Part shown: positions 3,001 to 19,795 of the stretch, in pieces | Numbering within the stretch: the stretch's first letter is position 1 | How the letters are laid out: the number at the start of each line of letters is the position of its first letter | Origin: a virus | Virus record (IMG/VR): IMGVR_UViG_3300008050_000279 | Coordinates: 1 to 25,598 of that record | Direction: 5' to 3' (one strand) | Length of the DNA stretch: 25,598 nt | Notes under the pieces: model-generated | Database searches by the model: none | The model's input: the letters and a program-made list of their open reading frames with translations, nothing else | Told to the model about the DNA's origin: nothing | Made by a program: the position numbers and the translations under genes

Positions 3001-6000
3001 GGTTTTTGGATGCACAAATTTGCTAAGAATTACAGACAGTCTTCTGTACGAAATTATATAGTAGACAGGATTTCAAGACCAGTTATACAGAATGGTGGTA
3101 AGGCAAGAATGAGACCTTGGGACCAAGGAATGATATTTGATAAGAATATGAGTAGACTAAATACAGAACAGGATATATTCTTTTTAGATAACAACTGGAA
3201 ACAGAAAAGAATTTATGACCCGTTCTTTACTGGTGGCTCTGAAAAACTTGGCACTATCTGGAAGAACAGACAGTTAGGTGAAAAAGGTCCTTATAAAGAG
3301 AATTTAGAATTAGTAGACGGGATTCTTGAAGCATTAAATATGAGAGTTCCTATGGATTCTCAAAGTGGTGCCCATATTTTAAAGTTCCAAGGCTTTACTG
3401 GTATGAGAGGTAACGGAGTCTTACTTCACGGTAGAGCTATGGAAGCATTAGGAGGGGCTGACCTTGACGGTGATAAAGCCTTTATATTCTTTGGTGGTAG
3501 AGGTGGTGTTTTAAATAAGTGGAAATCTATTTATAGAGACCAAGTGAATGAGTTCGTAAAGGGAGAAGAAATGACTCCTGCAAAAACACAAGAGGCTAGG
3601 GATAAATTTGTTAAGAAAGATAAAGAAGTATCCGCTTTTGGTGACAATGCAATGTCTAAATTTGATTCTCATTGGAGAGGTCATATGTCTGAAGCCGCCG
3701 TTGATGGAAGAGACACTCTAAAGGGAGCTGTCACTACGAGACAAGCTTTATTATCTGCTTATGACTCTATTAGACTTGCTAATAAAGGGGTTCAATATGA
3801 AGGTCCTACAAGATATGTTAATAAAACACACGTTCCTATCATTATACAGGATGGTTCTTACTATTATCCAATAGAAATCCCAGGCTCTAAGAAGATTTGG
3901 TATATGAAACAAACACCTAAAGTAGCTAGTGGAGCTTTGCAAAGGTTTAAAGAGCTGTCAAGAGCCGCAATAAACTTAGGTGCTGACCCTATGGATGAAT
4001 CGGGTATCGTTCCTATGGCAAAGATAAAGGAAATTTTAACAGATTCCTTATTTAATTTTGATATACATCAAGGTATTAAGACTAAAAAGGGCGTTAAGTT
4101 TACAAGAAGTGACAAATACAACTCACGTTCGTACTATAAATTAGTTAATAAGAATAAAAAATGGGGATTACACGGGGCATACGGAAAAGTTAACAATGTT
4201 TTATATGGTAGAAATGTAGAATCTGGTAATAAATGGAGCCTTGGAGAAATTCAAGATGGTATAAACTCTATTAATTGGCTACCTAAAGAGAGTCAGAACA
4301 ATTTAATGAGCTTTCTTGCTAAGGAATATAGACAAATACCTTATGAAGATAATATTTTCAGGAGATTAAATAAAAAGAACCTAGAAGATTTATACAAATT
4401 CAATAGAGAGCATTTTAAAGACAACCCAGAGGTTGCAGAATTGTTTGAAAGAACATCTATGACGAGCCGTATGGGTAAAATGATGGACCATATAATCAGA
4501 GAACGTATATTTGACCAAGCATCTAGAGAGGCATTAGCAAAAAACCCACATAAATTCTGGGACTTATTCTCTCGTAATTGGCATCCGCAATTTGATGAGA
4601 CTGTAACTGGGAAGAGGTCAGAAATGGGTACTATTCCTTGGCACTTATATAAAAAGTTTAAGTATCAAGGTAAGAAAACTAGCTATCTTACTAGATTGCA
4701 ATATCTAGAGTATAAATTAAATCAAGCTGAGGACTTCTTAGTCAACGACCTTTCCGATATGGCGTCAATGAAGCATATATTAGGAGTTCGTGATAAACAC
4801 AATATACCAGATAAGGTATTTAAAAAGATTAATAAGATGGTTAATAAAGTCAAGGCATCGTCTTATTGGGTTAAAAAGAACAGAGACCAAGCTATAAAAG
4901 ACTTAAGAGAAGTAGATAACAATGAGACTGCTGAACAGTTAATCCGTGAACTTAATAAAAAAAATAAGCAAGGTGCTGGTGCTAATCAAGCTGATATAGA
5001 TAAGATGATTGTCCTTGATAAGAGACAGCTTTCAGCTAAGGCTGGTCAGCAAGAGCTTTATGATGCCCTAATGCTAGGTACTTTTCAAAGAACAGAATTA
5101 AATGCCCTTAAAGGTTTACTTAATACATCTAAAAATCTTAGTGCAAAATTATTAAGATTAAAAAATATATACCTTAAGCACGGACAAAATACATCCTTAC
5201 TAAGGCTCGGTTTTGGTTCTAAAAGTATAAAGGATTCTAATATCCGTAAGCACCTTGATGAATATAATAAGTTGTTTGAGATTATTAATAAACCTAATGG
5301 TAAGGAAGTAGAGCAAATACTTAAAGAGTCTACTAAGAATGAAAATGAAATTAATGAGTACAGAAATGAAATAGGTGAAGTTGTTGAAGATAGAATTATA
5401 GAAGCATCTGATTTGTCTCAAGCCGATAGATTGTATATGGACCAAATAGAACCTTTTAAAGGAATAACTGAAGGTAAGGTTAAGGACCCAGAGCTAAGGG
5501 AGATTTATCACAAGTTACAAGGACATTTAAAACACTATAACAATGCTACTACTAGAGAGTTAAGTGGGTTTTTTCGCTACTTATTTAAAAAGAATTTGAA
5601 CCAAGCTACAAAGTATGATTTAAAAGTCCTTGAAAGAGCATTTCAAGATATGAGAACCGGAAGTTGGTGGTCTAACTTTATGAGCTTTGTTAATGGTAAA
5701 TCAGAACTTCCTGATATTCAAAGAAGATATTGGAATATTTTTCCTGCCGCAGTAAATAGAGATATGATGAAAAATCCTCGCCTTATGAATTGGAAAAAAG
5801 ATGTTGCTCCTTATATGGATAGGTTTGGTAATTCTATTGTAGGTGAGGTTGTTAGACCTACTGCTTTGATTGGTGAGTTACAGAATTTTGCACACAAAAC
5901 ATCAGAATTTGCTATTCAGCAGAGCGAAGAAGAGACACAAAGATTAAGAGACGAGTTAGCTCCTTTGATAAAGTCCACAGAAGAAGGAGATATTCTACAT

Positions 6001-8469
6001 AAGATTGCTGTTGCTGTAAGAGAAAGAGGTATGGTCCACGCACTTGCAGAGCAAGAAGGTCAGTCATCTTTACTTTCGCATAAGCAGTTAAATTATATTA
6101 AGAACCTTGATTTAGTTAAAGCTGATATGGAAAAGTTTGGCAATAAACACTATGTTGTACAAACTAAAGAAGGGGCTGTCAAGATGACAGGTGAAGAGGT
6201 TTGGACTAAGATAAATGAAATATATACTAAGCAGAATGAGAAAATGGATAGGTGGATTAACGGTGATGTTGATTATTTAGAAAAAGAATGGTTCTCTCTT
6301 GCTCGTAATAAGTATGGAAAGATTACTTGGAGAGGTTTAGATAACTTAAGAAATAAGTTTGTTTCATTTAGTAATGAGGCTTTTAGAAAAGGTGAAAGAT
6401 ATGATATAGAGAAGTTTGGTGTCAATGGTATGCAAGAAATATCTAAACATATTATATTAAGTCTTACACCTAAGACTCGAGGAAAGAATGTAAGATTAAG
6501 AACTGAAAAACTCCTTAATCAAAGAATCAAAGATATAGGTCTTGGTTATTCAAGGACTGAATTATGGGACAAAGACGCTTATTTCCCGCACGTTTCTTTT
6601 GATAGAAAGAATGTAACTGACCAATTAATTAAAGGGTTAAAACATATCTTTGATGATAAGAAACTGACTAAATCAGAGAAGAAGAAATATGCTCAGAAGT
6701 TAGTTTATCAATCAAAAGCTATGACTGGTGACTGGGTTCATAAGAGTGCTTTAAGTGATAATTATGAATTAATGGAAGATATTTATTTAGGTCTTGCCAA
6801 CAAAGAAAGGATTAAGGACATACAAATCCTTAAGGGTGGTTTTAAAAAGGCTTATAGTCAGCATCAAAGAGATGCTCATCTATCAGGATGGGACACTACA
6901 CCTGAAGCATATGAATCTTATATGAAGAATTTGTCAGATACTTTTTATAAAGAGTCTATGCAAATGTTAAGTAGGGTTCATATTAAAAAGTTCCATAGAA
7001 ATTTCTTAAGAAAAAATCCTAAAGAAAGTGCTTTAGCTAAAAGATGGGGGAATTTCTTCCAACTATTTACACAGTCTGCTATGGGTTACCCTATTGATAT
7101 ACCTGAAGCTGTAATGAATGACCCTAAGATGAAGATAAAAGGTACTCCTTATAAGTGGTTTGCTGATAATAGAGCAAGGAATAGAATTGATTCTATAAGA
7201 AAGACTTTAGGTGTTACTAGTAAAGCCCTGAAATCATACGATTTAGAACAAGCAGATATTGATGCTCTTTCTGGCGTTCATCAAAGTACTCTACAATATT
7301 GGGGTGGCTTAGAAGCTAAATGGCAAATGGCATCACTACTTGCTCACCCTAAAAGTTCAATAACAAATTTATATGGTGGTACTATACATACTGCGATAAG
7401 TGCCGGTGTAGATAATCTTAAGAAGGCAAGGGATATAGACTGGTTAAGAGCTAATATTAATCCTAATTGGAAAAGTATGAAAGATGTTGATAGGTGGGTT
7501 GTCGACTTAGGTATAATAGAGGAATTTCTAATTCACGAAGCTGGATTAAACAGACAGCTAAAAGGTAAAAGATTTGAAGAATTTCTTGCTGAAGCAAAAA
7601 AAAGCATAAGCAATGACCCTGCTTACGCTGATACTTCGCTTAATCAGTTAAGAAGAAAATACAAAATCACTGATGGTATATGGGAAAAAGCATCGTGGTT
7701 TATGAGAAAGCCTGAAAGAATACTTCGTAGAGATGCGTTTATGTCTCACTTAATACAGGCTAAAGAACAATTTGGTGGTGCAATCAAACAATTTGACCAC
7801 CCGTTTTTAATTGAGATGGGTAAACGAGGTGTAAAGGGGACACAGTTCTTATATTCTGCTCCTTTTAGACCTATGTGGACCAATAGTGTATTGGGTAGGG
7901 TGTTTTCTCGTTTTCAATTATGGAGTTGGAACTCAGTGCGTTTTAGAAATGACACTATTCGTGAACTTAGGATAAGGGGCTATCAACCCGGTACCCCAGC
8001 ATTTGAGAGAGCAAAAAGATTAGCAATAGCTGATTTATTTATGCTTTCAATGGCTTCAATGTTCCAGTATAGTTTATTCGACAACGCACTTCCAGCCCCT
8101 TGGAATTGGTTCCAAGATACTGCTAATTGGTTAATGGGAGATGAAAGCGAAAGGGAGAAGGCTTTCTATGGGAATGCTCTGGGTCCATTATCAATAGCAC
8201 AGCCACCTATAGCAAGATTTATTCAACCTACTTTTGAAGGTCTTGTAAATGGGAAATGGGATAAATTAGCTGATTACTATGGCTGGACGGCACTTCCTTT
8301 TGGAAGATTTATGAAAGATGTTATTGGAAAAGGCGGGATGTTAGAGAATCCATTCTATTCTGTAGAAAAGATGACCGGTTTTCCGTTGATAGCTGGTAGT
8401 AGGTATATACAAAAAGCAAAGGAAAATGAAGAAGAATCTTTTGGATTATTTAAGCCTAGTAATACTTAG
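1..8469 (+). CDS. Giant phage protein with GNAT-like and RNA polymerase DPBB-like segments
   Basis: A single uninterrupted frame of 2822 residues. The ATG is the first base of the window, so an upstream extension cannot be excluded. Around residues 700-790 there is a GNAT acetyltransferase-like segment: Q733-G-S-G-V-G738 matches the acetyl-CoA loop (Q/RxxGxG/A), and F778-W-K-K-M-G-Y784 matches the usual late GNAT strand. Around residues 1114-1160, R1115-V-P1117 is followed by G-G-A-D1154-L-D1156-G-D1158, which parallels the RAP...NADFDGD catalytic loop of multisubunit RNA polymerase beta-prime and the DxDGD loop of the single-chain polymerases of crAss-like phages and QDE-1. The rest is charged and largely helical; residues about 2670-2695 are hydrophobic. 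Size and place beside late genes suggest a virion protein ejected with the DNA, possibly a virion RNA polymerase. The catalytic roles are inferred from short motifs; a second polymerase barrel was not identified. Confidence 0.85.
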   Translation: MPILSKLEPGQATDIALRTVAGGLVQGMVAQGMSDEELPLEDQVYNYILGGYFGLNESPLHLRISRQAIAETFKNPSYNRKGVPDPELNPKWDTWTEQTQKIVKEDFAHVFGHGDEAKFANFQVIKQAMENEGFVDVKQIEKALVEKYLEVDIDPATGEPYKKVTEAEIKAVKDSIKDNPNNEEYQDLDMHLNEIGKLPGRIAGSNGFVARYLEPRIKDFDTVKRLKESIKVNKAWDALHEIKNGVRVPKKGAIEEMNQWLKNTYKLDKISDKETDFWRNWAEQTRKKKLVLQAYYVDGKVAYINDGVNVIGNKKELAFEPPTIQSIFENVFKVRNKTEDAPNFYVLVDHFVRKGKEYKLNDVMALQQQLNKEAVKSGDPDMAASAEAVIKRMRAKVSMELEKDGYYYAGGRGDKNAMYFVQKHPDLNTGNRHKQLREIREAFKDNGVSEEDFDAHIKRGIDKYKFRFRGMKEDAEKYYLDSFISNAFYEVNNNLGSQYPIEQMGTGLRKVLGKGYIKGAKAYNKRAQIWFNSGLSTNPEVSEYFMNKYYGRYRKELGLKAGFEPLPLRGKGLMKKFRMAIWDDTIPGPESFKWKRPNIERPESFDGAIIALPEYIYGLNKAAGLTNEGNVNKSFIVAPDANYGALLGKYMFFEASPNMAKAMRARGIHALAPKSAIKQMGDRQFAQVKVPGQSDVFTSKMFRDEVAKMPIEYVPHTLQRSRIGEIYVPKEAQGSGVGERFVKALERWRRYRGDQFIDIEAIGGRESFGSKNLDNVEFWKKMGYKVAPENLQTKNAEILPETALNPEARGKKVMKIRMYKELKPRDNDSFRIEGDTYDIQQRHVRTILSEVTSNHDIVNAKWAKQLWSTISHFGQNKTDPKIVKDMANELIGKAVKGEKEANLQWDEHLKSPNAVSERKVLENIDVVSLDRVLSAATDTHNQDFASKVYERILGRAEAIKLESANEAEISREQMFELRQDITEFESIIDRLQEIYPKGNLGFWMHKFAKNYRQSSVRNYIVDRISRPVIQNGGKARMRPWDQGMIFDKNMSRLNTEQDIFFLDNNWKQKRIYDPFFTGGSEKLGTIWKNRQLGEKGPYKENLELVDGILEALNMRVPMDSQSGAHILKFQGFTGMRGNGVLLHGRAMEALGGADLDGDKAFIFFGGRGGVLNKWKSIYRDQVNEFVKGEEMTPAKTQEARDKFVKKDKEVSAFGDNAMSKFDSHWRGHMSEAAVDGRDTLKGAVTTRQALLSAYDSIRLANKGVQYEGPTRYVNKTHVPIIIQDGSYYYPIEIPGSKKIWYMKQTPKVASGALQRFKELSRAAINLGADPMDESGIVPMAKIKEILTDSLFNFDIHQGIKTKKGVKFTRSDKYNSRSYYKLVNKNKKWGLHGAYGKVNNVLYGRNVESGNKWSLGEIQDGINSINWLPKESQNNLMSFLAKEYRQIPYEDNIFRRLNKKNLEDLYKFNREHFKDNPEVAELFERTSMTSRMGKMMDHIIRERIFDQASREALAKNPHKFWDLFSRNWHPQFDETVTGKRSEMGTIPWHLYKKFKYQGKKTSYLTRLQYLEYKLNQAEDFLVNDLSDMASMKHILGVRDKHNIPDKVFKKINKMVNKVKASSYWVKKNRDQAIKDLREVDNNETAEQLIRELNKKNKQGAGANQADIDKMIVLDKRQLSAKAGQQELYDALMLGTFQRTELNALKGLLNTSKNLSAKLLRLKNIYLKHGQNTSLLRLGFGSKSIKDSNIRKHLDEYNKLFEIINKPNGKEVEQILKESTKNENEINEYRNEIGEVVEDRIIEASDLSQADRLYMDQIEPFKGITEGKVKDPELREIYHKLQGHLKHYNNATTRELSGFFRYLFKKNLNQATKYDLKVLERAFQDMRTGSWWSNFMSFVNGKSELPDIQRRYWNIFPAAVNRDMMKNPRLMNWKKDVAPYMDRFGNSIVGEVVRPTALIGELQNFAHKTSEFAIQQSEEETQRLRDELAPLIKSTEEGDILHKIAVAVRERGMVHALAEQEGQSSLLSHKQLNYIKNLDLVKADMEKFGNKHYVVQTKEGAVKMTGEEVWTKINEIYTKQNEKMDRWINGDVDYLEKEWFSLARNKYGKITWRGLDNLRNKFVSFSNEAFRKGERYDIEKFGVNGMQEISKHIILSLTPKTRGKNVRLRTEKLLNQRIKDIGLGYSRTELWDKDAYFPHVSFDRKNVTDQLIKGLKHIFDDKKLTKSEKKKYAQKLVYQSKAMTGDWVHKSALSDNYELMEDIYLGLANKERIKDIQILKGGFKKAYSQHQRDAHLSGWDTTPEAYESYMKNLSDTFYKESMQMLSRVHIKKFHRNFLRKNPKESALAKRWGNFFQLFTQSAMGYPIDIPEAVMNDPKMKIKGTPYKWFADNRARNRIDSIRKTLGVTSKALKSYDLEQADIDALSGVHQSTLQYWGGLEAKWQMASLLAHPKSSITNLYGGTIHTAISAGVDNLKKARDIDWLRANINPNWKSMKDVDRWVVDLGIIEEFLIHEAGLNRQLKGKRFEEFLAEAKKSISNDPAYADTSLNQLRRKYKITDGIWEKASWFMRKPERILRRDAFMSHLIQAKEQFGGAIKQFDHPFLIEMGKRGVKGTQFLYSAPFRPMWTNSVLGRVFSRFQLWSWNSVRFRNDTIRELRIRGYQPGTPAFERAKRLAIADLFMLSMASMFQYSLFDNALPAPWNWFQDTANWLMGDESEREKAFYGNALGPLSIAQPPIARFIQPTFEGLVNGKWDKLADYYGWTALPFGRFMKDVIGKGGMLENPFYSVEKMTGFPLIAGSRYIQKAKENEEESFGLFKPSNT

Positions 8470-12138: not shown

Positions 12139-12279
12139 TTAGTTCTCCTTACTATCAAGGGCTTTAGCTATAATCCACTCTACCTGTTTCTTAACAGAGC
12201 GTTTACAAGCCTCAGCCATTTTCTGTAACATAACTTTCTGTTCTGATGTTACTTCGGCTTTTACTATATGGGTTTTCAT
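12139..12279 (-). CDS. Ribbon-helix-helix (Arc/CopG-like) protein
   Basis: A 46-codon gene. AAGGAGG lies 8 bases before the ATG, inside the 3' end of the helicase gene, and the helicase stop overlaps it as ATGA. The product has a short N-terminal strand (HIVKAEVT), helix one (SEQKVMLQKMAEACK), a turn (RSV) and helix two (KKQVEWIIAKALDSK). This is the Arc/MetJ/CopG ribbon-helix-helix plan at about the usual domain length. Such proteins dimerise and bind operator DNA. It likely represses its own block or another phage promoter. Its stop abuts the next start with no spacer. Confidence 0.7.
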   Translation of the reverse strand: MKTHIVKAEVTSEQKVMLQKMAEACKRSVKKQVEWIIAKALDSKEN

Positions 12280-14069
12280 ATTACATTCCTCCTTGGAAGT
12301 CTAAACGATGGTGTCCAATTCAAATCAACTGTGAATAAGTCTCCATCTGAGTTTTTGAATAGTTCTACAGTCTTTTCTGAACTATCTTGTTTTCCATTGA
12401 TACCAATTACTTTCCTTGATGCGTTTTCTATTGCACCACTACCCTTACCAGCGTAGATGTCAAGTATTTGATTTCTGCTGTATTCTCGACTAACCTGTGA
12501 TACTTGTATTATGATTATGTCCATATTAACAGCTAAGTTCGATAAGTAATGAGATATATATTTTATTTGTTCATATTCGCCTCTTATGTGTCTGGGCGTC
12601 TCTACTAAGTCTATATAATCTACTACTACTAAACTAGGCTGTAAGTCTCTGACCTGTTTTTGAATCAAATCAGGAGATGGACTTATAGTTTGCATAACAA
12701 TATGTTCTAGGCTCTCTTTGTATTGTTCACCTATAATCTTGCTATCATCACTAACCTCATCTTTAGTTAAACCACTTACTATCTGAAGATTGCGTCTGTG
12801 CATATACCAACCACTTAATTCAAGAGATAAGAATAAAGTCGGCATAGTCCACTCTTTACGAATAACATTTTCAGCAAAATCATAACCTAAGGCAATGTTT
12901 TGTGCTAATGTTGTCTTATTCGCTCCAGTCGGACCAAATATGGTAACTAACTCTCCCGGATATACTGTACAATCTTTATCCCCTAAGCCAAAACTTTTAC
13001 TTAGGTCTATGGCTCTTCCGGAGAAGTCGCTTGTTAGACGTTCTTCTAAATCAGCCTGTAATGTAGACTGAGTTTTAACATCAACTAGATAGTCTTTGTT
13101 TTTGTAATATATACATTTAGGACTACAAACCTTTGCTAATAACTGGTCACTACAACCATACTTATACCCATAGTTATATGTGCTTTCGACCTTATCTGTA
13201 ACTATTTGCGGGTGTAATTGATTGTTATTCCAGTACAGCAAAGCGGCTTTAGTTGCACTACTCGGTATTCCGTGTCTTCTCATATGAGAAGCTATCCTCA
13301 TAACCGAATGGTTTCTACTGCCTTGTTCTGGTCCTCTATTGTATAGTGTTTGTATACAAGGTACTACAGTGGTTGGTTCAGATACCTTTACCATTTCTCG
13401 AACATTAGGGACATTTAACTGAATGGTATGACCCATACTTTCATCGCCCCATAGTTCTGCTCCTAACCACTTTAACCTTCTATCCTGTGCTAACATTTGG
13501 ATTTCTTTATACGAGCCTAATGCTAATTCGTCTCTACTCAATGGTATTTTGAATAGTTGACTCTTAATATTCAAGGTATGAGCCATTCTTATTATGGCTG
13601 TTCTCGTATAAACGCTAGGGTCAAGTCTTAGATTATCAAACGCTGTCATCATAGTTTCTTTAACTATAAATGGTAGGTCTGGTCCAGCTTGAAAACCAAA
13701 GTTATCTGCGGCTAACATTATATGATAACCGGTCCCACTGAAAAAGCATTGATAGTTGCCATCTTTTAGATTGTACTCACTTTCAATGAACATAAGTATA
13801 TCTTTTGCCATTTTATGTGTGTAATCATCAGTATTCTGACCTTTATCAATGTCTATTGGAATTTCGTCTATATCTCTGTAACCCATAAAGGATTTCATAC
13901 TTCTGTTTTTATCAACGAAGTCCTTTCCTTCTTGGTCATAGAGATAAACACTTCTATAGATAGCGGCACTTGCACCGTTCTCATATACTATATCCCACAA
14001 ATCATCCAATGGGACTAAGGTCCCCCGCCGAGACGGAGAACCTATAGCCACTTCGACAAACTTACTCAC
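12276..14069 (-). CDS. Primase-helicase: AEP-like primase fused to DnaB-like helicase
   Basis: A 597-residue protein with a GTG start directly after the SSB stop. The N-terminal half looks like an archaeo-eukaryotic primase: P71-I-D73-I-D75 supplies metal-binding acidic residues, S111-G-T-G-Y-H116 matches the sGxGxH nucleotide motif, and residues 155-176 (TRTAIIRMAHTLNIKS...IPL) match its basic third motif. A cysteine cluster, C306, C315 and C319, follows. The C-terminal half is a RecA-fold helicase: Walker A G379-P-T-G-A-N-K385-T, catalytic Glu in L-S-L-E417, Walker B V-V-V-D484-Y, and a Q-V-S-Q segment. It would unwind the replication fork and make primers. Walker A has Asn where Gly is usual before the Lys. 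It sits downstream of the Sak4-like and SSB genes. Confidence 0.85.
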   Translation of the reverse strand: MSKFVEVAIGSPSRRGTLVPLDDLWDIVYENGASAAIYRSVYLYDQEGKDFVDKNRSMKSFMGYRDIDEIPIDIDKGQNTDDYTHKMAKDILMFIESEYNLKDGNYQCFFSGTGYHIMLAADNFGFQAGPDLPFIVKETMMTAFDNLRLDPSVYTRTAIIRMAHTLNIKSQLFKIPLSRDELALGSYKEIQMLAQDRRLKWLGAELWGDESMGHTIQLNVPNVREMVKVSEPTTVVPCIQTLYNRGPEQGSRNHSVMRIASHMRRHGIPSSATKAALLYWNNNQLHPQIVTDKVESTYNYGYKYGCSDQLLAKVCSPKCIYYKNKDYLVDVKTQSTLQADLEERLTSDFSGRAIDLSKSFGLGDKDCTVYPGELVTIFGPTGANKTTLAQNIALGYDFAENVIRKEWTMPTLFLSLELSGWYMHRRNLQIVSGLTKDEVSDDSKIIGEQYKESLEHIVMQTISPSPDLIQKQVRDLQPSLVVVDYIDLVETPRHIRGEYEQIKYISHYLSNLAVNMDIIIIQVSQVSREYSRNQILDIYAGKGSGAIENASRKVIGINGKQDSSEKTVELFKNSDGDLFTVDLNWTPSFRLPRRNVI

Positions 14070-14696
14070 TTAGAATTGAGTTTGCGAATTTGCATTACCT
14101 TCTGGCATACTGCCATTAGGTGTTGCGTTAGGGGTACTACCAACCTCCTTGATGAGATTCTTAGTCTTGAGGAATTGGATAAATGATTCCAACTCTGCTC
14201 TACCCTTTTCATTATTCTCAGTTATACGAGGATATACTGTGGTATATGCTGTGGAAGGGTCTTTCTTAGACGGCTCCTTGTATAAATAAGCATAATATTT
14301 CAAAGGTGGGTCCAACGGCGTAGTTGATATATGATGTTTATTAAGATAGTGCTGTAAGTTTTCAATTTCATTACCATCTTTATCAACAATATTACCAGTT
14401 ACGTCAGGACCACCTTCAAAGCCAATAGCATCGAAGAATCTGTACACCTTCTTTAAAAGGCTACAGGTCTTAATGTTACCATTAGGTTCTCTGTCATAAG
14501 AGCCCAATATCTTCATTTCCTGAGGATACTGAGAGTCTTTCAACTTTAGATTGACCACTAAGAATATATCAGCCCAATCATAATCGGCTGTTTTATCTTC
14601 ATAGTCCATCACTCCTACTTCACAAAACCCTATGAACTTAGAACCACCTTCACTGGAAGTATCTAAGTCGCTTGGTCTGAATGGTGCATTACTCAT
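14070..14696 (-). CDS. Probable phage single-stranded DNA-binding protein
   Basis: A 208-residue protein whose start overlaps the Sak4-like stop by four bases (ATGA). The body has alternating strands (KFIGFCEVGVMDY, WADIFLVVNLKL, MKILGSY) that fit an OB fold, then a conserved-looking KYYAYLYKEP region. The last 25 residues are low-complexity, Asn/Thr/Pro/Gly-rich, and end in Phe. A disordered tail with a terminal aromatic residue is typical of SSBs, although this tail is less acidic than usual. Position between a Sak4-like ATPase and the primase-helicase is the standard phage arrangement. No residue motif proves it, so the call rests on fold impression and context. Confidence 0.6.
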   Translation of the reverse strand: MSNAPFRPSDLDTSSEGGSKFIGFCEVGVMDYEDKTADYDWADIFLVVNLKLKDSQYPQEMKILGSYDREPNGNIKTCSLLKKVYRFFDAIGFEGGPDVTGNIVDKDGNEIENLQHYLNKHHISTTPLDPPLKYYAYLYKEPSKKDPSTAYTTVYPRITENNEKGRAELESFIQFLKTKNLIKEVGSTPNATPNGSMPEGNANSQTQF

Positions 14697-15559
14697 TCGC
14701 TTTTCTCCTTATACTGTTTTATTTCAGTTACAATACTCTCATAATCAAATGGTAGTACTTTCTGACTTAATGGTTTTAAGCGTGAGCCTACAACCCTTTC
14801 ATCATATGCCTCAAATGAAACATAGTATTTACCATCATCTTTCTGAGCAGTAGAATAACCTATTACATCGGCTTTGGCGGCTAAACTATAGCCTAACCCT
14901 CGTGGTAACTCTGGACTTAGTTGAGCTTTACCATCCGTGACTGTTGTAGTCTTGGAATGCGAAACTAGTACTAAGTTACCACCTTTCTTTTTAATGAGAT
15001 TCTGGAACCTCTTAATGATGTCAACATTCTTCCGTCTGGCTTTACCCCAGTCGGCTCCCCATTGACCTTCACCCATTGCAGAGATTCCTAACTCATTCAA
15101 TACAGTTTCTTCTACCCACTCGTTCACTTGACCAAGTGTATCAATACAAACTGTATCGTACGGTAAGTTGTCCCACTCTTTTTCCAACCATTGATAAGCC
15201 TCTATCAGTGAATACACTGGCATTGGCTTACCTAGGTCTTCTCCAGAACGATAGACGAATCCTCGTTCTAAGGGTGGAATCATTTCAAACTGTGCTATAC
15301 CTTTTTGCGTGACTTGCTTACCATCTTTCATCACAGGTCTCATTGGGGCGTTAAGAGAAGAAATAGTTACTACATTTGCATTATCAACAAATTCAGCTCC
15401 TAAATCAGTATCTAACATTAAGACACCTTCTTCTCCCTTACCGCTCCAACTAGCACAGGCTGTCGTTTTGCCCGTCTTGGGCTGTCCGATAAAGAAATAT
15501 GTCAAACCAGTTGGTAAACCTTCTGACCAATCAGTAGACACTTTTCTGACTTCTATCAT
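14693..15559 (-). CDS. Sak4-like RecA-fold ATPase (phage recombinase, AAA_24 type)
   Basis: A 288-residue protein with an AGGAG site, overlapping the E1-like stop by four bases (ATGA). Walker A is G25-Q-P-K-T-G-K31-T-T, the next strand ends L-M-L-D-T-D, and Walker B is Y-D-T-V-C-I-D140-T. V-L-V-S-H-S-K at about residues 197-203 is the usual sensor-like strand of this group. The length and layout match Sak4 single-strand annealing or RecA-like recombinases of phages, which work with an SSB in recombination-dependent replication and repair. The next gene is the probable SSB and the one after is the primase-helicase. Its tight coupling to the ubiquitin-like E1 gene ties the conjugation genes to replication. 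Confidence 0.85.
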   Translation of the reverse strand: MIEVRKVSTDWSEGLPTGLTYFFIGQPKTGKTTACASWSGKGEEGVLMLDTDLGAEFVDNANVVTISSLNAPMRPVMKDGKQVTQKGIAQFEMIPPLERGFVYRSGEDLGKPMPVYSLIEAYQWLEKEWDNLPYDTVCIDTLGQVNEWVEETVLNELGISAMGEGQWGADWGKARRKNVDIIKRFQNLIKKKGGNLVLVSHSKTTTVTDGKAQLSPELPRGLGYSLAAKADVIGYSTAQKDDGKYYVSFEAYDERVVGSRLKPLSQKVLPFDYESIVTEIKQYKEKSE

Positions 15560-16284
15560 ACAGACTCCTGTTCTATTAACCCTATATCGGGTCTTATTAA
15601 TGTTCCAAATTGTACTGAATTTGGACTCAAGCAGGACTGAATATAGTCATAATACCCTAGATTTGCAACAAGATTATACACTTGAGCAACTGCTAGAGAC
15701 GCAATATGCTGAGCCGCAAACACAGTATGTTTCTGTGAACACGGGGCTTTTGGTACACTATCCGTAGGAATCCAAGTCTTCATATACTCTGAGTCTAAAT
15801 AACTCTCTGTTTCCTTGGCTCTGTAGGATTCTGTTACCAGTTCTGTTGTAGTGGCACCCATACGGGCATCAATAAACCAGTCTCTCTTTTGATTCTCTTG
15901 ATTATACCAAGATTCGAAAGCGGCTTTTCTTGATTCCATATCGTCTGTGCATACAATCATTCTTGCGTGAGGCTTTTCGTTTTGGTCCCAGCGTCTCATC
16001 TTATAGATAAACTCTTGGTCCGTTCCATCATACATACTGTGTAGTACTGATGCCGCCTCAGCTTTAGGTCTATCAACCATATTTGTTGGATACGCTGTAC
16101 TACTCAAGTTATGAGTTGACATTGTATCTGGGTCATAGACATACATTGACTTATAACCCATTATAGTTAGACCTTGTATTATAAAGGAGCCAATTCCACC
16201 AGCTCCTATAATAATAACATCACTTAGTTTACTTTGGTCAATGAGGTCTTTATTCCTCAAGAACCTACTATTGGCTTTTTCCAT
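15556..16284 (-). CDS. E1-like ubiquitin-activating enzyme (ThiF/MoeB/E1 superfamily)
   Basis: A 242-residue Rossmann-fold adenylating enzyme. It shows V-I-I-I-G27-A-G-G-I-G32-S (ATP loop), Y-D51-P-D53...H-N59-L-S-S, R72-P-K74-A-E-A and C112-T-D114-D-M-E-S-R119, which line up with the D, N, R, K and D residues that bind ATP and magnesium in ThiF and E1 enzymes. C182, in A-P-C-S-Q-K-H-T, is the best candidate for the thiol that takes the activated Ubl; there is no separate Cys domain. It would adenylate the C-terminal glycine of a Ubl such as the product of 19589-19795 and pass it to an E2-like partner. GGAGG precedes the start, which lies inside the preceding membrane-protein gene (17-base overlap). 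The Sak4-like gene follows through an ATGA overlap. Confidence 0.85.
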   Translation of the reverse strand: MEKANSRFLRNKDLIDQSKLSDVIIIGAGGIGSFIIQGLTIMGYKSMYVYDPDTMSTHNLSSTAYPTNMVDRPKAEAASVLHSMYDGTDQEFIYKMRRWDQNEKPHARMIVCTDDMESRKAAFESWYNQENQKRDWFIDARMGATTTELVTESYRAKETESYLDSEYMKTWIPTDSVPKAPCSQKHTVFAAQHIASLAVAQVYNLVANLGYYDYIQSCLSPNSVQFGTLIRPDIGLIEQESV

Positions 16285-16411
16285 TTGTCCTCCAGTCAGT
16301 AAATGCTGATATGATTAATACAAAGAAGAACGACCCTATCCCCATTAATAGTACGCCACAGCCTACTAAGAATAGATTTATTGACCATTCCCATAAATCC
16401 AGTATAATCAT
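16268..16411 (-). CDS. One-helix membrane protein within the Ubl operon
   Basis: A 47-codon gene whose ATG overlaps the stop of the coiled-coil gene (ATGA) and whose end overlaps the E1 start by 17 bases. Residues about 11-37 form one long hydrophobic helix rich in Gly, Leu and Phe, preceded by an acidic aromatic start (LDLWEWS) and followed by a short basic tail (DWRTNGKSQ). It would be a single-pass inner-membrane protein. No family was recognised. Being translated between the coiled-coil protein and E1, it may anchor or assist the conjugation enzymes, or it may simply be an unrelated small gene carried in the operon. Confidence 0.6.
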   Translation of the reverse strand: MIILDLWEWSINLFLVGCGVLLMGIGSFFFVLIISAFTDWRTNGKSQ

Positions 16412-16839
16412 ACCTTCATCTCTACGAATTGATTTAACATCTCATAAGCTTCCTGCTCAGAACCGAACATAGCTTGGTCCTTAATTCTGGTAGCTTCTTC
16501 ATTAATTAACTGACGCTTTTCGCTGATTTTATCATTTTCAGCCGCCAATTCAGCGTTAACTTGTTTTTCATAGACTTCGAAACCTTCTATTAGGTCTCTA
16601 ACATCTACGGTACCTAGATTACTTCCAGACCAACCGTTTCTTGCTCTATCTAAGCTTTTATCTATCATACTTTTCATCTTATCAAAGTCAGTATACTGAA
16701 TATCTCCACTCTTTAATCCTTGCTTAGCGATAATACATTCTGAACTTGATTGGTTGTCTTGTAACTTTCTTACTTTTTGACTTGCTACTTCATCTATTCT
16801 TTTAATGAAGTACTTTTTTTGCGGTATAGTCATACTCAT
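16408..16839 (-). CDS. Unrecognised coiled-coil protein between JAB and E1 genes
   Basis: A 143-residue protein with AAGGAG 9 bases before the ATG. It is mostly helical: charged heptads run from residues 5-30 and again from about 85-125 (VYEKQVNAELAAENDKISEK...). A glycine-containing break lies near residues 68-76 (NGWSGSNLG). There is one cysteine (C35) and no catalytic motif. It lies between the JAB protease and the E1-like gene, after a 152-base spacer that is itself structured. It could be an adaptor, a target, or an E3-like scaffold of the conjugation system; this is speculation from position only. Confidence 0.65.
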   Translation of the reverse strand: MSMTIPQKKYFIKRIDEVASQKVRKLQDNQSSSECIIAKQGLKSGDIQYTDFDKMKSMIDKSLDRARNGWSGSNLGTVDVRDLIEGFEVYEKQVNAELAAENDKISEKRQLINEEATRIKDQAMFGSEQEAYEMLNQFVEMKV

Positions 16840-16859
16840 TTCACATCACTCCTTAATTA

Positions 16860-16987
16860 AAGGGGGACTGGTCCGGCTTTATAAGCAGACCGAATCCCAG
16901 TTATCGGAGCTTTAACAACTCCTGATAGGATTCTTTTCCTCTTTCACGTACTCGGTTTTATTATGTACTGGCTTCACAGCCCCCCTT
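16860..16987 (-). ncRNA. Structured multi-stem element between JAB and coiled-coil genes
   Basis: The spacer is closed by a 7-bp stem (16860-16866 with 16981-16987, AAGGGGG/CCCCCTT) and contains three hairpins: 16870-16891 (GGTC and GCTT arms, 8 bp with small bulges), 16902-16927 (8 bp with one bulged base) and 16948-16968 (GTAC/GTAC, weak). It therefore folds like a cloverleaf of about 128 nt. It directly precedes the AAGGAG of the coiled-coil gene on the minus strand. It could be a 5' regulatory RNA, an RNA-processing site or an independent small RNA. I saw no tRNA signature. Confidence 0.5.
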
Positions 16988-16991
16988 AGGT

Positions 16992-17909
16992 TTATTTTGT
17001 TGTTGATAACTGGTCCACATATAAATGCGGGTCAAGGTCAGGACTTAACTTCCTTACTTCTTCACCAAAGTCTGCTTCTGTTAGTTCATTTGACTCTAGT
17101 TTATTGTAAAGTTCAGCTAATTTGTCCTGCATATCCGGTTCGAAACTATCATTGTATGCTTTTGTTACAGCATCCTCAATATCCGGAATATCTTCAATGT
17201 CCTTTCCTTTAATGTACCTAGTTGTTGTCTTGTCTGATTCCACTTTATCCATACCCCCGAACATATTATGTTGACCATAATAGCCGCCGTGAGTATAGCC
17301 TCTGAAACCACCACTGTAACCACCATAGGTTGTCGTAACCTCTTTCTTCTTATTCTCTTCAATAAGGTCTGCCTCTTTTCTCCATAATTTATCAGATTTG
17401 TTTCTGAACATAGATTTGACATCACCTTCTATGTAGTTTGGCAATCCAAATTGGTCCCGATATGAAACTGCTGTTACAAACGGGTCTTTTGCAGATGCCA
17501 CTACTGTTGAAAAGAATAGTCCTTGTTCAGGTGCTTGTTCCAGCAGAGCCTTTTCATCGGTCCCACTAAAGAATGCACCCATTGTATGGTGACTATGTAT
17601 TAATCCCAAATGACACTTTAAGAGCTTTGGATGTTTCTTGTAAGTTGCGGGTAATATCTCACCCAGCTTCTCACCGTCCATTTCCGTCTCTGTATGGCTA
17701 CCTAAATCAATAGGTGTAAAGTGTTCAAGTGTTACTTCAAGTGGAAATCCCCTATCGCTTGATTTAACAATTCTGTACCACGCTGGTCCAGACCATTCGG
17801 TATTGTTAAAACGTCTCAATAGATAGTTGATTTTCTCCACTATCAACGAAGGTATTGATACGGTCAGTTCCGTTAATACCTGCTCTTCTGATTGCTCTTC
17901 CTTCTTCAT
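16992..17909 (-). CDS. JAB/JAMM metalloprotease (deubiquitinase-like)
   Basis: A 305-residue protein with AAGGAG 8 bases before its ATG. The N-terminal 150 residues form a JAB/MPN domain with the complete zinc motif: H105-S-H107, seven residues, S115-G-T-D118. E38 (N-T-E-W-S-G) is a candidate catalytic Glu. JAB enzymes cleave after the C-terminal glycine of ubiquitin-like proteins, either to mature a precursor or to remove it from targets. Here the neighbouring Ubl ends Gly-Cys, so removing one residue would expose the glycine. Residues about 195-225 are Gly/Tyr-rich (YGGYSGGFRGYTHGGYYGQ), a flexible linker, followed by an acidic helical tail. The start lies 104 bases inside the E2-like gene in another frame, an unusually long overlap. 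Confidence 0.88.
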   Translation of the reverse strand: MKKEEQSEEQVLTELTVSIPSLIVEKINYLLRRFNNTEWSGPAWYRIVKSSDRGFPLEVTLEHFTPIDLGSHTETEMDGEKLGEILPATYKKHPKLLKCHLGLIHSHHTMGAFFSGTDEKALLEQAPEQGLFFSTVVASAKDPFVTAVSYRDQFGLPNYIEGDVKSMFRNKSDKLWRKEADLIEENKKKEVTTTYGGYSGGFRGYTHGGYYGQHNMFGGMDKVESDKTTTRYIKGKDIEDIPDIEDAVTKAYNDSFEPDMQDKLAELYNKLESNELTEADFGEEVRKLSPDLDPHLYVDQLSTTK

Positions 17910-19533
17910 AGTCGATACTCCTTATCGCTTCTTTTAGTTGTTTATTGATTTTACTGTAGACCATAGACCTGATATATGCTTTCCATTTGTGCATAACATA
18001 TTCATATTCTTCAGCCTGTAGTATTTTATCACAAGTGTCGATTGCAATAGCTATTCTTTTGCCTATAGCAATCCTTAGCTCTTGGTTTTCTTGTTCATCT
18101 CGATTGATACCTTCTGAGTAATGCTTGAACAATGCCCAGATTTGTTTACAATCAAATACCTCATCAAATGACCATTGAACGCCATCAATATCAGGTAAAT
18201 GCTTATCAGTATCCTTTTCAAGAACAAGTTTAACAAAGAATGCTAAGCTCCGTAATACATAGAGATAGCAACTCTCGTGATACAGGTAATCGTGACTACT
18301 TCGTCCAGAGTTTACATAAACTCTTTCATAATATTCATCATCACTCAACACTCCTTGATATTTCTTAAATACCCTATCTGTATTGTAAAAGCCTCTGCGA
18401 ATATCATTGAATTGGCTAATCGAAATTGGCGGTCCATCACTTCTTAATCCGGCGTCATCTATATTTCTTAACCTTCTGAACTTAGTATTAGCCGTTTCTA
18501 AAGAAGATAACATTGCTCCACCAGAACCAAACTCTGTTATGTTAAGGTTTTCTTCCGTGAAACTAGCTCTACAATCGTCCTTGTCATTTACTATCGCTTC
18601 ATCAATCAAGGTTTGATAATTTACACTCTTCAATAATTTTGAAGCACTATGTAGTCCACCTATCTCTCGCACCGTTTGATTCAGATTAATAGTAATTTGA
18701 CAAGCGTTTGCTATGTGTAATTCCTCTGTATCCTGATACTTACCAGTCAACAGGTCGTGTAACTTCCAACATATGAAAAGGTCTTCCTTGGACCATCCAA
18801 GTTTCAAACACTTTTGATATGTAGGGTGACTAACCATACCCTGTTCCCAGTAGCTTCGTCTAAAGCTACCTTGCATTGACACTCGAGCTAACTCATTCAT
18901 AACGTGTTTCAATAGCAAATACTGTTTAAAATCACCGGTCTTATGAATCTCATAAGTTTGGTAGACTCTATTGATGTCCCAATAGCAATCTCTCCTAGTC
19001 CAGTTATTTAAAAACGAATTGGCTACTTGTACCATCGTTAATAGATTGTTTGTTTGCAAAGACATACTCCAAGGACCACTGAAATCCCCTAAGCACGGAT
19101 TACCATCACTACTAACGTGTGGATGTATGGCTATCCTTTGTTCTTTTATTAGTCTCTTATAAAACAAACTATCATCTCCCCCTGTGCAAAATCTATCAGC
19201 AAGACTGCTGAATAGTGCATAAGGCTTCTCCATTTCATCCGAAAAATCAGTAAAGATACTTCCATTACTTTGATTACTCGTAAATGCAAGAGACATCATC
19301 GGTAGCTTATACCTTCGGCTACCTTTCAAGACTGGATTCTTCAGTTTAATCCTGAAGTCACCAACCCATCTTCCACTGGCTCTTCTCATAATTGGAGAAT
19401 GAAAATGCAATTTCTTTGAGAACATCTCATACAGGTTAATTGCATCATCCTTTTTAAGGGTCTGCTCATTGGTCCTAGCATTGTGCATCAACCAACGAGG
19501 TACTAAGTATCTTAACTTACTTACTTCATTCAT
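17806..19533 (-). CDS. E2-like ubiquitin-conjugating domain with long C-terminal extension
   Basis: A 575-residue protein with GGGAGT before its ATG. Residues about 40-190 read as an E2/UBC-like domain: strands around 58-66 and 78-98, then H137-P-H-V-S-S-D-G-N-P-C147-L-G-D-F with W155, followed by a helix (NNLLTMVQVANSFLNNW). This matches the E2 pattern HPN...G..CL......W.......L..I..LL, with C147 as the thioester cysteine. The roughly 385 residues after it are helical and unrecognised, including a Cys/His/Tyr-rich stretch around 400-425 (SSHDYLYHESCYLYVLRS). Ordinary E2s are 150-200 residues, so this is a fusion; the extension could select targets or act as an E3. It follows the Ubl gene by 55 bases and overlaps the JAB gene by 104. 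Confidence 0.75.
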   Translation of the reverse strand: MNEVSKLRYLVPRWLMHNARTNEQTLKKDDAINLYEMFSKKLHFHSPIMRRASGRWVGDFRIKLKNPVLKGSRRYKLPMMSLAFTSNQSNGSIFTDFSDEMEKPYALFSSLADRFCTGGDDSLFYKRLIKEQRIAIHPHVSSDGNPCLGDFSGPWSMSLQTNNLLTMVQVANSFLNNWTRRDCYWDINRVYQTYEIHKTGDFKQYLLLKHVMNELARVSMQGSFRRSYWEQGMVSHPTYQKCLKLGWSKEDLFICWKLHDLLTGKYQDTEELHIANACQITINLNQTVREIGGLHSASKLLKSVNYQTLIDEAIVNDKDDCRASFTEENLNITEFGSGGAMLSSLETANTKFRRLRNIDDAGLRSDGPPISISQFNDIRRGFYNTDRVFKKYQGVLSDDEYYERVYVNSGRSSHDYLYHESCYLYVLRSLAFFVKLVLEKDTDKHLPDIDGVQWSFDEVFDCKQIWALFKHYSEGINRDEQENQELRIAIGKRIAIAIDTCDKILQAEEYEYVMHKWKAYIRSMVYSKINKQLKEAIRSIDYEEGRAIRRAGINGTDRINTFVDSGENQLSIETF

Positions 19534-19552
19534 ACTTGACTCCCTAATTATG

Positions 19553-19578
19553 AAAGGGCTGAGTTTCCCCAGCCCCTT
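19553..19578 (-). terminator. Hairpin between Ubl and E2-like genes, possible attenuator
   Basis: On the minus strand a 9-bp stem (AAGGGGCTG with CAGCCCTTT, one G-T pair, 8-base loop) lies between the Ubl stop at 19589 and the E2-like start at 19533. Only three T bases follow immediately, so termination would be partial. Such a hairpin could keep the small Ubl more abundant than the E2-like enzyme, or protect the Ubl message from decay. Confidence 0.5.
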
Positions 19579-19588
19579 CGGTTACCCG

Positions 19589-19795
19589 TTAACAACCAGA
19601 AGTTACCTTGTTGGTTGTAAAAGACAGAAAGTCGTCATCACGTAGTGACACACTTGCATCTGCCTTCTTTGAGTTTACAGATATTGTAACATTGTCGAGT
19701 GACATTTCTAGTTGTCTTGCCGCATCGGCAGGGTTAGAAACATTCTCTAGTGTTTTAGGAACACCACCTATTGTCTGTACTAAGACCTTTGCCAT
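19589..19795 (-). CDS. Ubiquitin-like beta-grasp protein ending Ser-Gly-Cys
   Basis: A 68-residue protein with TAGGAG 7 bases before its ATG. Its pattern fits a ThiS/MoaD/ubiquitin beta-grasp fold: strand 3-9 (KVLVQTI), a second strand, helix around 21-31 (NPADAARQLEM), strand 35-40 (NVTISV), then L51-R-D-D-D-F-L-S-F-T, which matches the L.DGD.V.F segment before the C-terminal tail of ThiS-like proteins. The tail ends T-S-G67-C68. Ubls are activated on a C-terminal glycine, and many are made as precursors trimmed by a protease, so trimming of C68 by the JAB enzyme is a natural idea. The following genes encode E2-like, JAB and E1-like proteins, which supports the call strongly. A hairpin follows the stop. 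Confidence 0.75.
   Translation of the reverse strand: MAKVLVQTIGGVPKTLENVSNPADAARQLEMSLDNVTISVNSKKADASVSLRDDDFLSFTTNKVTSGC

Follow-up and report, generated by a model that had tools for sequence, protein, structure and literature searches.

Ubiquitin-like (Ubl) conjugation systems of bacteria can combine a Ubl with E1, E2 and JAB activities. In the anti-phage, ISG15-like BilABCD operon, BilA has two consecutive Ubl domains, BilB carries a CEHH motif, and BilD has an inactive and an active adenylation domain plus a Cys domain (PMC11354881); its gene order is probably Ubl, E2, JAB, E1. The plasmid and chromosomal operons of Iyer type 6d (Iyer 2006, PMC1779556), which probably correspond to PRTRC, encode a small single Ubl, a stand-alone JAB with an N-terminal extra domain, a single-domain E1 and a separate E2. 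In type II CBASS (Cap2/Cap3) and in the 6A-MBL protein, E1 and E2 are fused (PMC1779556), and a Ubl gene does not appear to be part of the CBASS operon. SAMP/TtuB/Urm1-type systems, in which the Ubl may double as sulfur carrier and protein modifier, have a ThiF-type E1 but lack an E2 (PMC11354881 states this for SAMP). In phages, the lambdoid tail proteins TAPI and TAPK pair a Ubl with a JAB, without E1 or E2 in the published description (PMC1779556).

Here we examine a viral locus with Ubl, E2-like, JAB and E1-like genes. It shares the four predicted activities and the probable gene order of Bil, although the E2 assignment rests on a motif, a model and weak matches, and it is encoded by phages, not by hosts against phages.

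A predicted Ubl conjugation operon in a phage genome

The window (the whole stretch of 25,598 nucleotides analysed) is a viral record with a terminase and a P22-type portal. The operon and its neighbours comprise the following features:

19589..19795, minus strand: Ubl modifier (68 aa), predicted single beta-grasp domain, with a conserved K-V-T-S-G tail followed by one extra residue (Cys)
17806..19533, minus strand: E2-like conjugating enzyme (575 aa), with a UBC-like domain at about residues 25-181, then a long helical region
19093..19125, minus strand: HPHVSSDGNPC active-site stretch of the E2-like protein (residues 137-147)
16992..17909, minus strand: JAB/JAMM metallo(iso)peptidase (305 aa), E38...H105-S-H107...S115..D118
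16408..16839, minus strand: 143-aa helical protein between JAB and E1
15556..16284, minus strand: E1-like activating enzyme (242 aa), an adenylation domain with C182 in P-C-(T/S)-x-K-x-T
14693..15559, minus strand: Sak4-like single-strand annealing/recombination ATPase, starting within the E1 stop (4-nt overlap)
14070..14696, minus strand: 208-aa conserved protein between Sak4 and primase-helicase, with a 4-nt overlap with Sak4
12276..14069, minus strand: primase-DnaB-type helicase

The four genes (19795-15556) had been recognised in a preliminary description from the sequence alone, and their positions, strand and listed active-site residues were confirmed. Two corrections were needed. The start of the JAB gene overlaps the E2-like gene by 104 nt, and two ORFs that had not been mentioned lie between JAB and E1: the 143-aa protein, present in about half of the marine relatives (22 non-redundant sequences with highly conserved ends), and a 47-aa membrane-like ORF. 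The same operon was found at 99-100% identity on two further IMG/VR contigs from other metagenomes, so it is not an assembly artefact. No megablast match was obtained in GenBank phages.

The Ubl and E1-like proteins

The AF2 model of the Ubl (bb-a-b-b, pLDDT 84.8) is a beta-grasp. Its nearest folds are TtuB (Z 9.0), MoaD (Z 8.8) and SAMP2, with ubiquitin also matched, and profile searches of the PDB reached ThiS, SAMP2 and MoaD. The top hit of this profile (8vd6, 1e-8) is a CAP REPEAT chain hit through many short pieces and was set aside. The window protein ends in KVTSGC; S66-G67 was invariant in 31/31 non-redundant relatives and is followed by 0-9 residues.

The E1-like protein matched Pfam ThiF (2.7e-11) and, in PDB profile searches, UBA5 (4e-12), UBA3, UBA6, Cap2 and BubCD. 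Its nucleotide-binding site (GxGGIG, D51/D53, N59, K74, D114) is strictly conserved, G27/G29/G30/D51/D53/N59/K74/D114 and C182 being present in 74/74 non-redundant relatives. The cysteine C182, not listed in the preliminary description, aligns to UBA6 residue 625, presumably the catalytic cysteine of that enzyme. The protein nevertheless lacks the separate Cys domain of BilD and eukaryotic E1s.

Both proteins also resemble sulfur-carrier systems (MoaD-MoeB, TtuB), which thiolate small molecules or tRNA. One could therefore propose that the E1 converts the Ubl into a thiocarboxylate donating sulfur to a small molecule, tRNA or DNA base, with JAB recycling the carrier and the E2-like protein being the sulfur-using enzyme. 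The nearest folds of the Ubl, the single-domain E1 like ThiF/MoeB and the known Ubl-JAB pairs of sulfur metabolism (PMC1779556) would fit this reading. However, no rhodanese, cysteine desulfurase, ThiG/MoaE or tRNA thiolase was seen next to the genes, the E1 has a catalytic-type cysteine, and the conserved HPH..C site described below matches E2s, if weakly. We consider this alternative unlikely, although TtuB itself may also be attached to proteins, so that the two readings overlap.

The JAB and E2-like proteins

The JAMM residues are conserved: S115 and D118 in 67/67 non-redundant relatives, and E38, H105 and H107 in 66/67. Prok-JAB was detected in 30 of 30 family members, and the best PDB matches were Rpn11-like and CSN5.

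In the E2-like protein, H137, H139, C147 and G149 were invariant in 44 relatives. Over the non-redundant relatives, C147 and G149 were found in 52/52 non-gap cases and H137/H139 in 51/52; P138 is conserved as well. None of these residues, nor those of the other three proteins, is a chance feature. The two PDB sequences reached with E<10 are both the human E2 Ube2W (best E 0.13), aligned across HPH and Cys. Ube2W independently tops the structural list (Z 5.3 over residues 25-181), which also includes TSG101 UEV and Cdc34. Each of these matches is weak alone; the only Pfam hit of the core is UQ_con (E 0.19), and Foldseek gave nothing significant for the full 575-aa model (E>0.001). A UBC fold around C147 is thus suggested rather than established.

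The E2-like proteins end in Q-x-x-L-(S/F), which looks like a beta-clamp binding motif and is strongly enriched (37/55 tails against 35/1200 other ORFs). In 36 of 37 cases, however, it lies exactly 28 nt before the EWSG codons of the overlapping JAB frame. It can therefore be a by-product of JAB coding and was not used as evidence.

Comparison with Bil, PRTRC, CBASS and tail systems

The preliminary description had pointed out that the gene order is that of Bil. The proteins nevertheless fail the defining features of Bil. The window Ubl has one domain (a distant phage, L081, does have two), and the 242-aa E1 has one adenylation domain. No CEHH motif (E at +6, H at +8 and +13 from Cys) was found, the commonest residues at these positions being N, W and S. 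The same order does not, therefore, mean Bil.

The E2 of type 6d lacks the upstream His and has a conserved one downstream of Cys, whereas here HPH is upstream and no conserved His follows C147. The Ubl did not match PRTRC_C (TIGR03738), and the scores for PRTRC_ThiF (36 bits versus 144.75) and PRTRC_A (14.8 versus 101.8) were far below the NCBIfam cut-offs. No helical 6d partner was identified. In contrast to type II CBASS, E1 and E2 are separate genes, and no nucleotidyltransferase was present among the proteins of the operon or its annotated neighbours, nor is a cyclase or MBL gene near.

A structural or tail-assembly role like that of lambda TAPI/TAPK was also considered, since TAPI Ubls carry a C-terminal glycine and pair with JAB (PMC1779556). 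The neighbours here are replication genes, with neither TAPK (JAB + NlpC/P60) nor TAPJ tail genes, and TAPI/TAPK gene sets have no E1 or E2 in the published description. This role appears very unlikely.

The gene set is linked and nearly restricted to viruses

The four genes are nearly always neighbours. In 73 distinct viral loci, E1 follows JAB in 70/70 testable cases, an E2-like gene lies beside it in 52/52 and a Ubl was found in 45/45 (four by eye). We confirmed 341 relatives in viral contigs, against one hit in 84,980 bacterial and archaeal genomes and none in plasmids. The system occurs in many ocean phages, in Crassvirales (crAss001 gp79-gp76), in Flavobacterium phages and in very large phages. 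The structural prediction and this linkage are the two tests on which the preliminary description had staked a complete conjugation pathway; it survived the linkage test and, for the beta-grasp, the structural one, whereas the UBC fold around C147 has only the weak matches noted above.

BLAST between the window and crAss001 E2 or Ubl found nothing useful. Profile comparison links the Ubls well, up to the SG end (hhalign E 7e-8), but the E2s only at the active site (probability 28%). For the crass-group Ubls, five of the six best PDB sequences are ubiquitins, ubiquitin fusions or ubiquitin-like (best E 0.0019), while the crass-group E2 profile has no E2 hit in the PDB.

The operon lies among DNA-metabolism genes

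In the window, the operon is followed by the Sak4-like gene (phrog_124, 8e-27; Pfam AAA_24, 3.8e-19), a conserved neighbour, and by the primase-helicase (phrog_19, 2.3e-27; phrog_16345, 4e-16; Pfam DnaB_C, 6.3e-15). Sak4, primase and helicase accompany it in the marine group, primase/helicase/UDG/exonuclease in crAss001, bajarodcaudo virus and FpV4, DnaB/Sak4/primase in one further virus (L082) and topoisomerases in a Xanthomonas jumbo phage. Gene neighbourhood is indirect evidence for a target, and the roughly 100 marine loci are one related lineage.

Two other roles should be weighed against this context. The set could jam or reverse host Ubl immunity (Bil, Bub, type II CBASS), for example as a decoy Ubl or by deconjugating host targets. 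The enzyme classes are those of host defence systems, and the E1 matches the E1 parts of CBASS proteins in PADLOC-DB as well as BubCD/Cap2 in the PDB. However, a full conjugation pathway is more than a decoy or a protease needs, and it is conserved and placed with replication genes in phages of very different hosts, whereas anti-defence genes tend to be patchy. Such counter-defence seems unlikely. Alternatively, the Ubl could be attached to host replication, transcription or metabolic proteins to redirect or inactivate them. This sub-case of conjugation, which overlaps with the model below, is compatible with all the anatomy, and the large non-UBC part of the E2-like protein differs between lineages, as might be expected if target recognition follows the host. 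Co-location with the phage's own replication genes equally suits phage targets, and in the absence of direct evidence on substrates host attack is a possibility but a doubtful one.

A model for the phage system

Taken together, these results are best explained by a complete, phage-owned and virus-specific Ubl conjugation cycle acting during phage DNA replication or recombination. We consider this probable, although no biochemistry exists and the target is inferred. In this model, JAB would cut off the short tail after Ser66-Gly67 of the Ubl and could later remove the Ubl from targets. The E1, as inferred from its conserved sites, would bind ATP, adenylate the exposed glycine and take the Ubl onto C182 as a thioester. 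The Ubl would then move to C147 of the E2-like protein, whose HPH motif would play the part of the HPN motif of eukaryotic E2s, while its long helical part would select the target in the absence of an E3. Least certain is that the targets are proteins, phage or host, at the phage replication or recombination site; this is inferred because the operon is set among DNA-metabolism genes in several unrelated phage lineages. The preliminary description had left the choice between a system adopted for the phage's own proteins and one turned against host targets; this remains open, and the replication-gene context favours phage DNA metabolism as the place of action.

More tentatively, the system may be a virus-specific branch of Ubl signalling, old enough to be shared by crAss-like, marine and very large phages, that modifies replication or recombination proteins at the phage replication site. 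It would then be a phage counterpart of SUMO/ubiquitin control of replication, with E2s carrying their own target-selecting parts.

In public records the genes are named 'thiamine biosynthesis protein', 'metalloprotease' or 'hypothetical', so the system appears to have been overlooked. No paper linking crAss-like or other phages with a Ubl/E1/E2 operon was found in the open-access literature examined. Its presence in cultured phages (crAss001, DAC15, FpV4, Xanthomonas PhiXhv-15) makes it directly testable. Ubl conjugation in bacteria is known mainly as a weapon against phages. Here, phages appear to own the whole pathway, which is conserved across distant lineages, including the crAss-like phages common in the human gut, and is set among the replication genes. 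It bears on the origin of ubiquitin signalling and on what phages do to their own or host proteins during infection.

Organization of the conjugation-type gene set

The 25,598-base virus record carries a terminase and a P22-type portal. On its minus strand, the following genes lie in order of transcription:

19795-19589 (minus strand), Ubl, 68 aa
19533-17806 (minus strand), E2-like protein, 575 aa
17909-16992 (minus strand), JAB protein, 305 aa
16839-16408 (minus strand), helical protein, 143 aa
16284-15556 (minus strand), ThiF/E1 protein, 242 aa
15559-14693 (minus strand), Sak4-like recombinase
then (minus strand) a 208-aa protein and a primase-helicase

The E1 and Sak4 genes, and the Sak4 and 208-aa genes, overlap by 4 nt, and the primase-helicase starts directly after, so the set reads as one operon. 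The same operon was found, at 99-100% protein identity, on two other IMG/VR contigs from other metagenomes. The preliminary description, which had proposed that this phage operon contains all parts of a ubiquitin-like conjugation pathway (Ubl, E2-like, JAB and E1-like), was right in substance.

The 143-aa helical protein (16408-16839) carries strictly conserved N-terminal TxPQKKY..R and C-terminal KD..MFG motifs. It is inserted between JAB and E1 in about half of the marine phages and gave no family match of note. A 47-aa ORF with a long hydrophobic stretch (16268-16411), possibly a small membrane protein, overlaps the E1 start. An open reading frame of 2822 aa (1-8469), running from the window's first base, is almost without family matches, with only a weak match to GNAT acetyltransferase (E 7e-4).

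The Ubl is predicted to adopt a beta-grasp fold

AlphaFold2 modelling of the Ubl gave a strand-strand-helix-strand-strand arrangement with a pLDDT of 84.8. The closest solved folds were TtuB (Z 9.0), MoaD in the MoeB complex (8.8) and SAMP2 bound to its JAMM enzyme (8.2), with ubiquitin at about 7, while Foldseek retrieved sulfur carriers, SUMO and ubiquitin. In 31 non-redundant relatives the Ser-Gly at the end is invariant and is followed by 0-9 variable residues, most often one. This is the pattern of a modifier that needs trimming before its glycine can be activated.

Conserved active-site motif of the E2-like protein

Across 44 relatives with 9-29% identity to the window protein, only H137, H139, C147 and G149 are invariant, with P138 nearly so. 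The profile of the first 194 residues reached two PDB sequences at E<10 among 177,635. Both were Ube2W, with VHPHisadgePCL aligned to VHPHVYSNGHICL, although the E values (0.13 and 0.16) are not significant alone. Independently, structural alignment placed Ube2W first for residues 25-181 (Z 5.3, 108 residues), with TSG101 UEV and Cdc34 also listed, and the sole Pfam match of the window core was UQ_con (E 0.19). We consider the E2 assignment as probable, not proven. The remaining 390 residues are helical in the model and differ between lineages.

The E2-like and JAB genes overlap out of frame by 104 nt (17806-17909). Such overlaps (4-170 nt, usually 50-125 nt) occur in 51 of 52 relatives, and the E2 tail sits at a fixed distance from the JAB EWSG codons. 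This tail looks like a sliding-clamp binding motif but may be a by-product of the overlap.

JAB and E1 carry conserved catalytic-type residues

All 30 JAB family members match Prok-JAB, with Rpn11-like and CSN5 as the best PDB relatives, and residues E38, H105, H107, S115 and D118 are conserved. The E1 profile retrieved UBA5 (4e-12), UBA3, UBA6, Cap2 and BubCD. In addition, C182 of the E1, a residue which the preliminary description did not list, is invariant in 74 of 74 sequences. In the profile, C182 is at about position 172, and UBA6 is aligned over profile positions 20-186 to residues 457-639. Assuming no gap in the last 14 aligned positions, C182 thus falls on residue 625, which would be the catalytic cysteine of UBA6.

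The gene set is linked in viral contigs and nearly absent from cellular genomes

Scans of viral contigs gave E1 relatives and 341 JAB relatives. Among 73 distinct JAB clusters, every one with enough flanking sequence has E1 downstream (70/70) and an E2-like ORF with the H-x-H..C-x-G motif in the neighbourhood (52/52). The Ubl was found by pattern in 41 of 45, and the other four (loci L006, L072, L081 and L145) have one as judged by eye.

By contrast, the JAB family was found only once in 84,980 bacterial and archaeal genomes, on a 6.8-kb contig of a Spirochaetia MAG (L145, RZYO01000145.1). This contig has the crass-like order primase-Ubl-E2-JAB-E1 and may be phage DNA binned with a bacterium. 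Neither JAB nor E1 was found in 72,556 plasmids.

Variants in distant phage lineages

In crAss001 the set consists of gp79 (Ubl at the N-terminus of a longer protein, ..KKIKSGA..), gp78 (E2-like, MHSHVSS..PCTG), gp77 (JAB) and gp76 (E1, annotated thiamine biosynthesis). It lies next to a primase on one side and to uracil-DNA glycosylase, resolvase and exonuclease on the other. DAC15, bajarodcaudo virus 1 and Flavobacterium phage FpV4 keep the order. In GenBank records of crAss-like and Flavobacterium phages (L004 7254-8405 and similar records), the E1 is annotated ‘thiamine biosynthesis protein ThiF’ and the JAB ‘metalloprotease’, which hides the system. The crass-group Ubls have ubiquitins, ubiquitin fusions or ubiquitin-like proteins as five of their six best PDB matches, and align to the window Ubls up to the SG (hhalign E 7e-8).

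Phages of 125-175 kb (L075, L076 and L081) keep E2(HPH..C), JAB and E1. L081 has a 138-aa tandem Ubl (4498-4914) whose two units end KGG and EGG(Q), a phage polyubiquitin-like precursor, and the first unit passes the Pfam ThiS cut-off. A jumbo-phage variant is present in Xanthomonas phage PhiXhv-15 (L147, PV764602.1, 1817-5696). It includes a Ubl ending exactly at SGG, an 892-aa protein with HPH..CLG and cysteine-rich N- and C-terminal ends (possibly zinc-binding and E3-like), and an E1 which keeps the cysteine. No JAB was detected in this genome by two searches. A Ubl that needs no trimming and a missing JAB fit together, but this is one case.

Comparison with known systems

Composition and order resemble those of Bil and type 6d/PRTRC operons. 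Nevertheless, tested defining features separate the phage set from both. With respect to Bil (PMC11354881), it has one Ubl domain, no CEHH and a single-domain E1. With respect to PRTRC (PMC1779556), the HPH is upstream, no PRTRC_C match was observed, and the E1 and JAB scores are far below cut-off. CBASS Cap2 is a fused protein. As far as the inferred mechanism goes, the phage set works like these systems but is not a member of any of them. No earlier description was found in the open-access literature, to which our search was restricted. Compared with the preliminary description, the new points are the invariant E1 cysteine, the spread to crAss-like and other cultured phages under misleading names, the near absence from cellular genomes, the constant replication-gene setting, and the features that separate the set from Bil and PRTRC.

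Inferred mechanism and genomic context

The simplest reading is that JAB trims the Ubl, the E1 adenylates it and forms a thioester at C182, and the Ubl is transferred to C147 and attached to targets chosen by the variable part of the E2-like protein, in a manner reversible by JAB. All these steps are inferred from conserved sites and established enzymology rather than from assays. Concerning the target, the operon is coupled to Sak4/primase-helicase in the marine phages, to primase/helicase/UDG/exonuclease in crass-like and Flavobacterium phages, to DnaB/Sak4/primase in the locus L082, and to topoisomerases in PhiXhv-15. This favours, with moderate confidence, an action on phage or host proteins during DNA replication or recombination.
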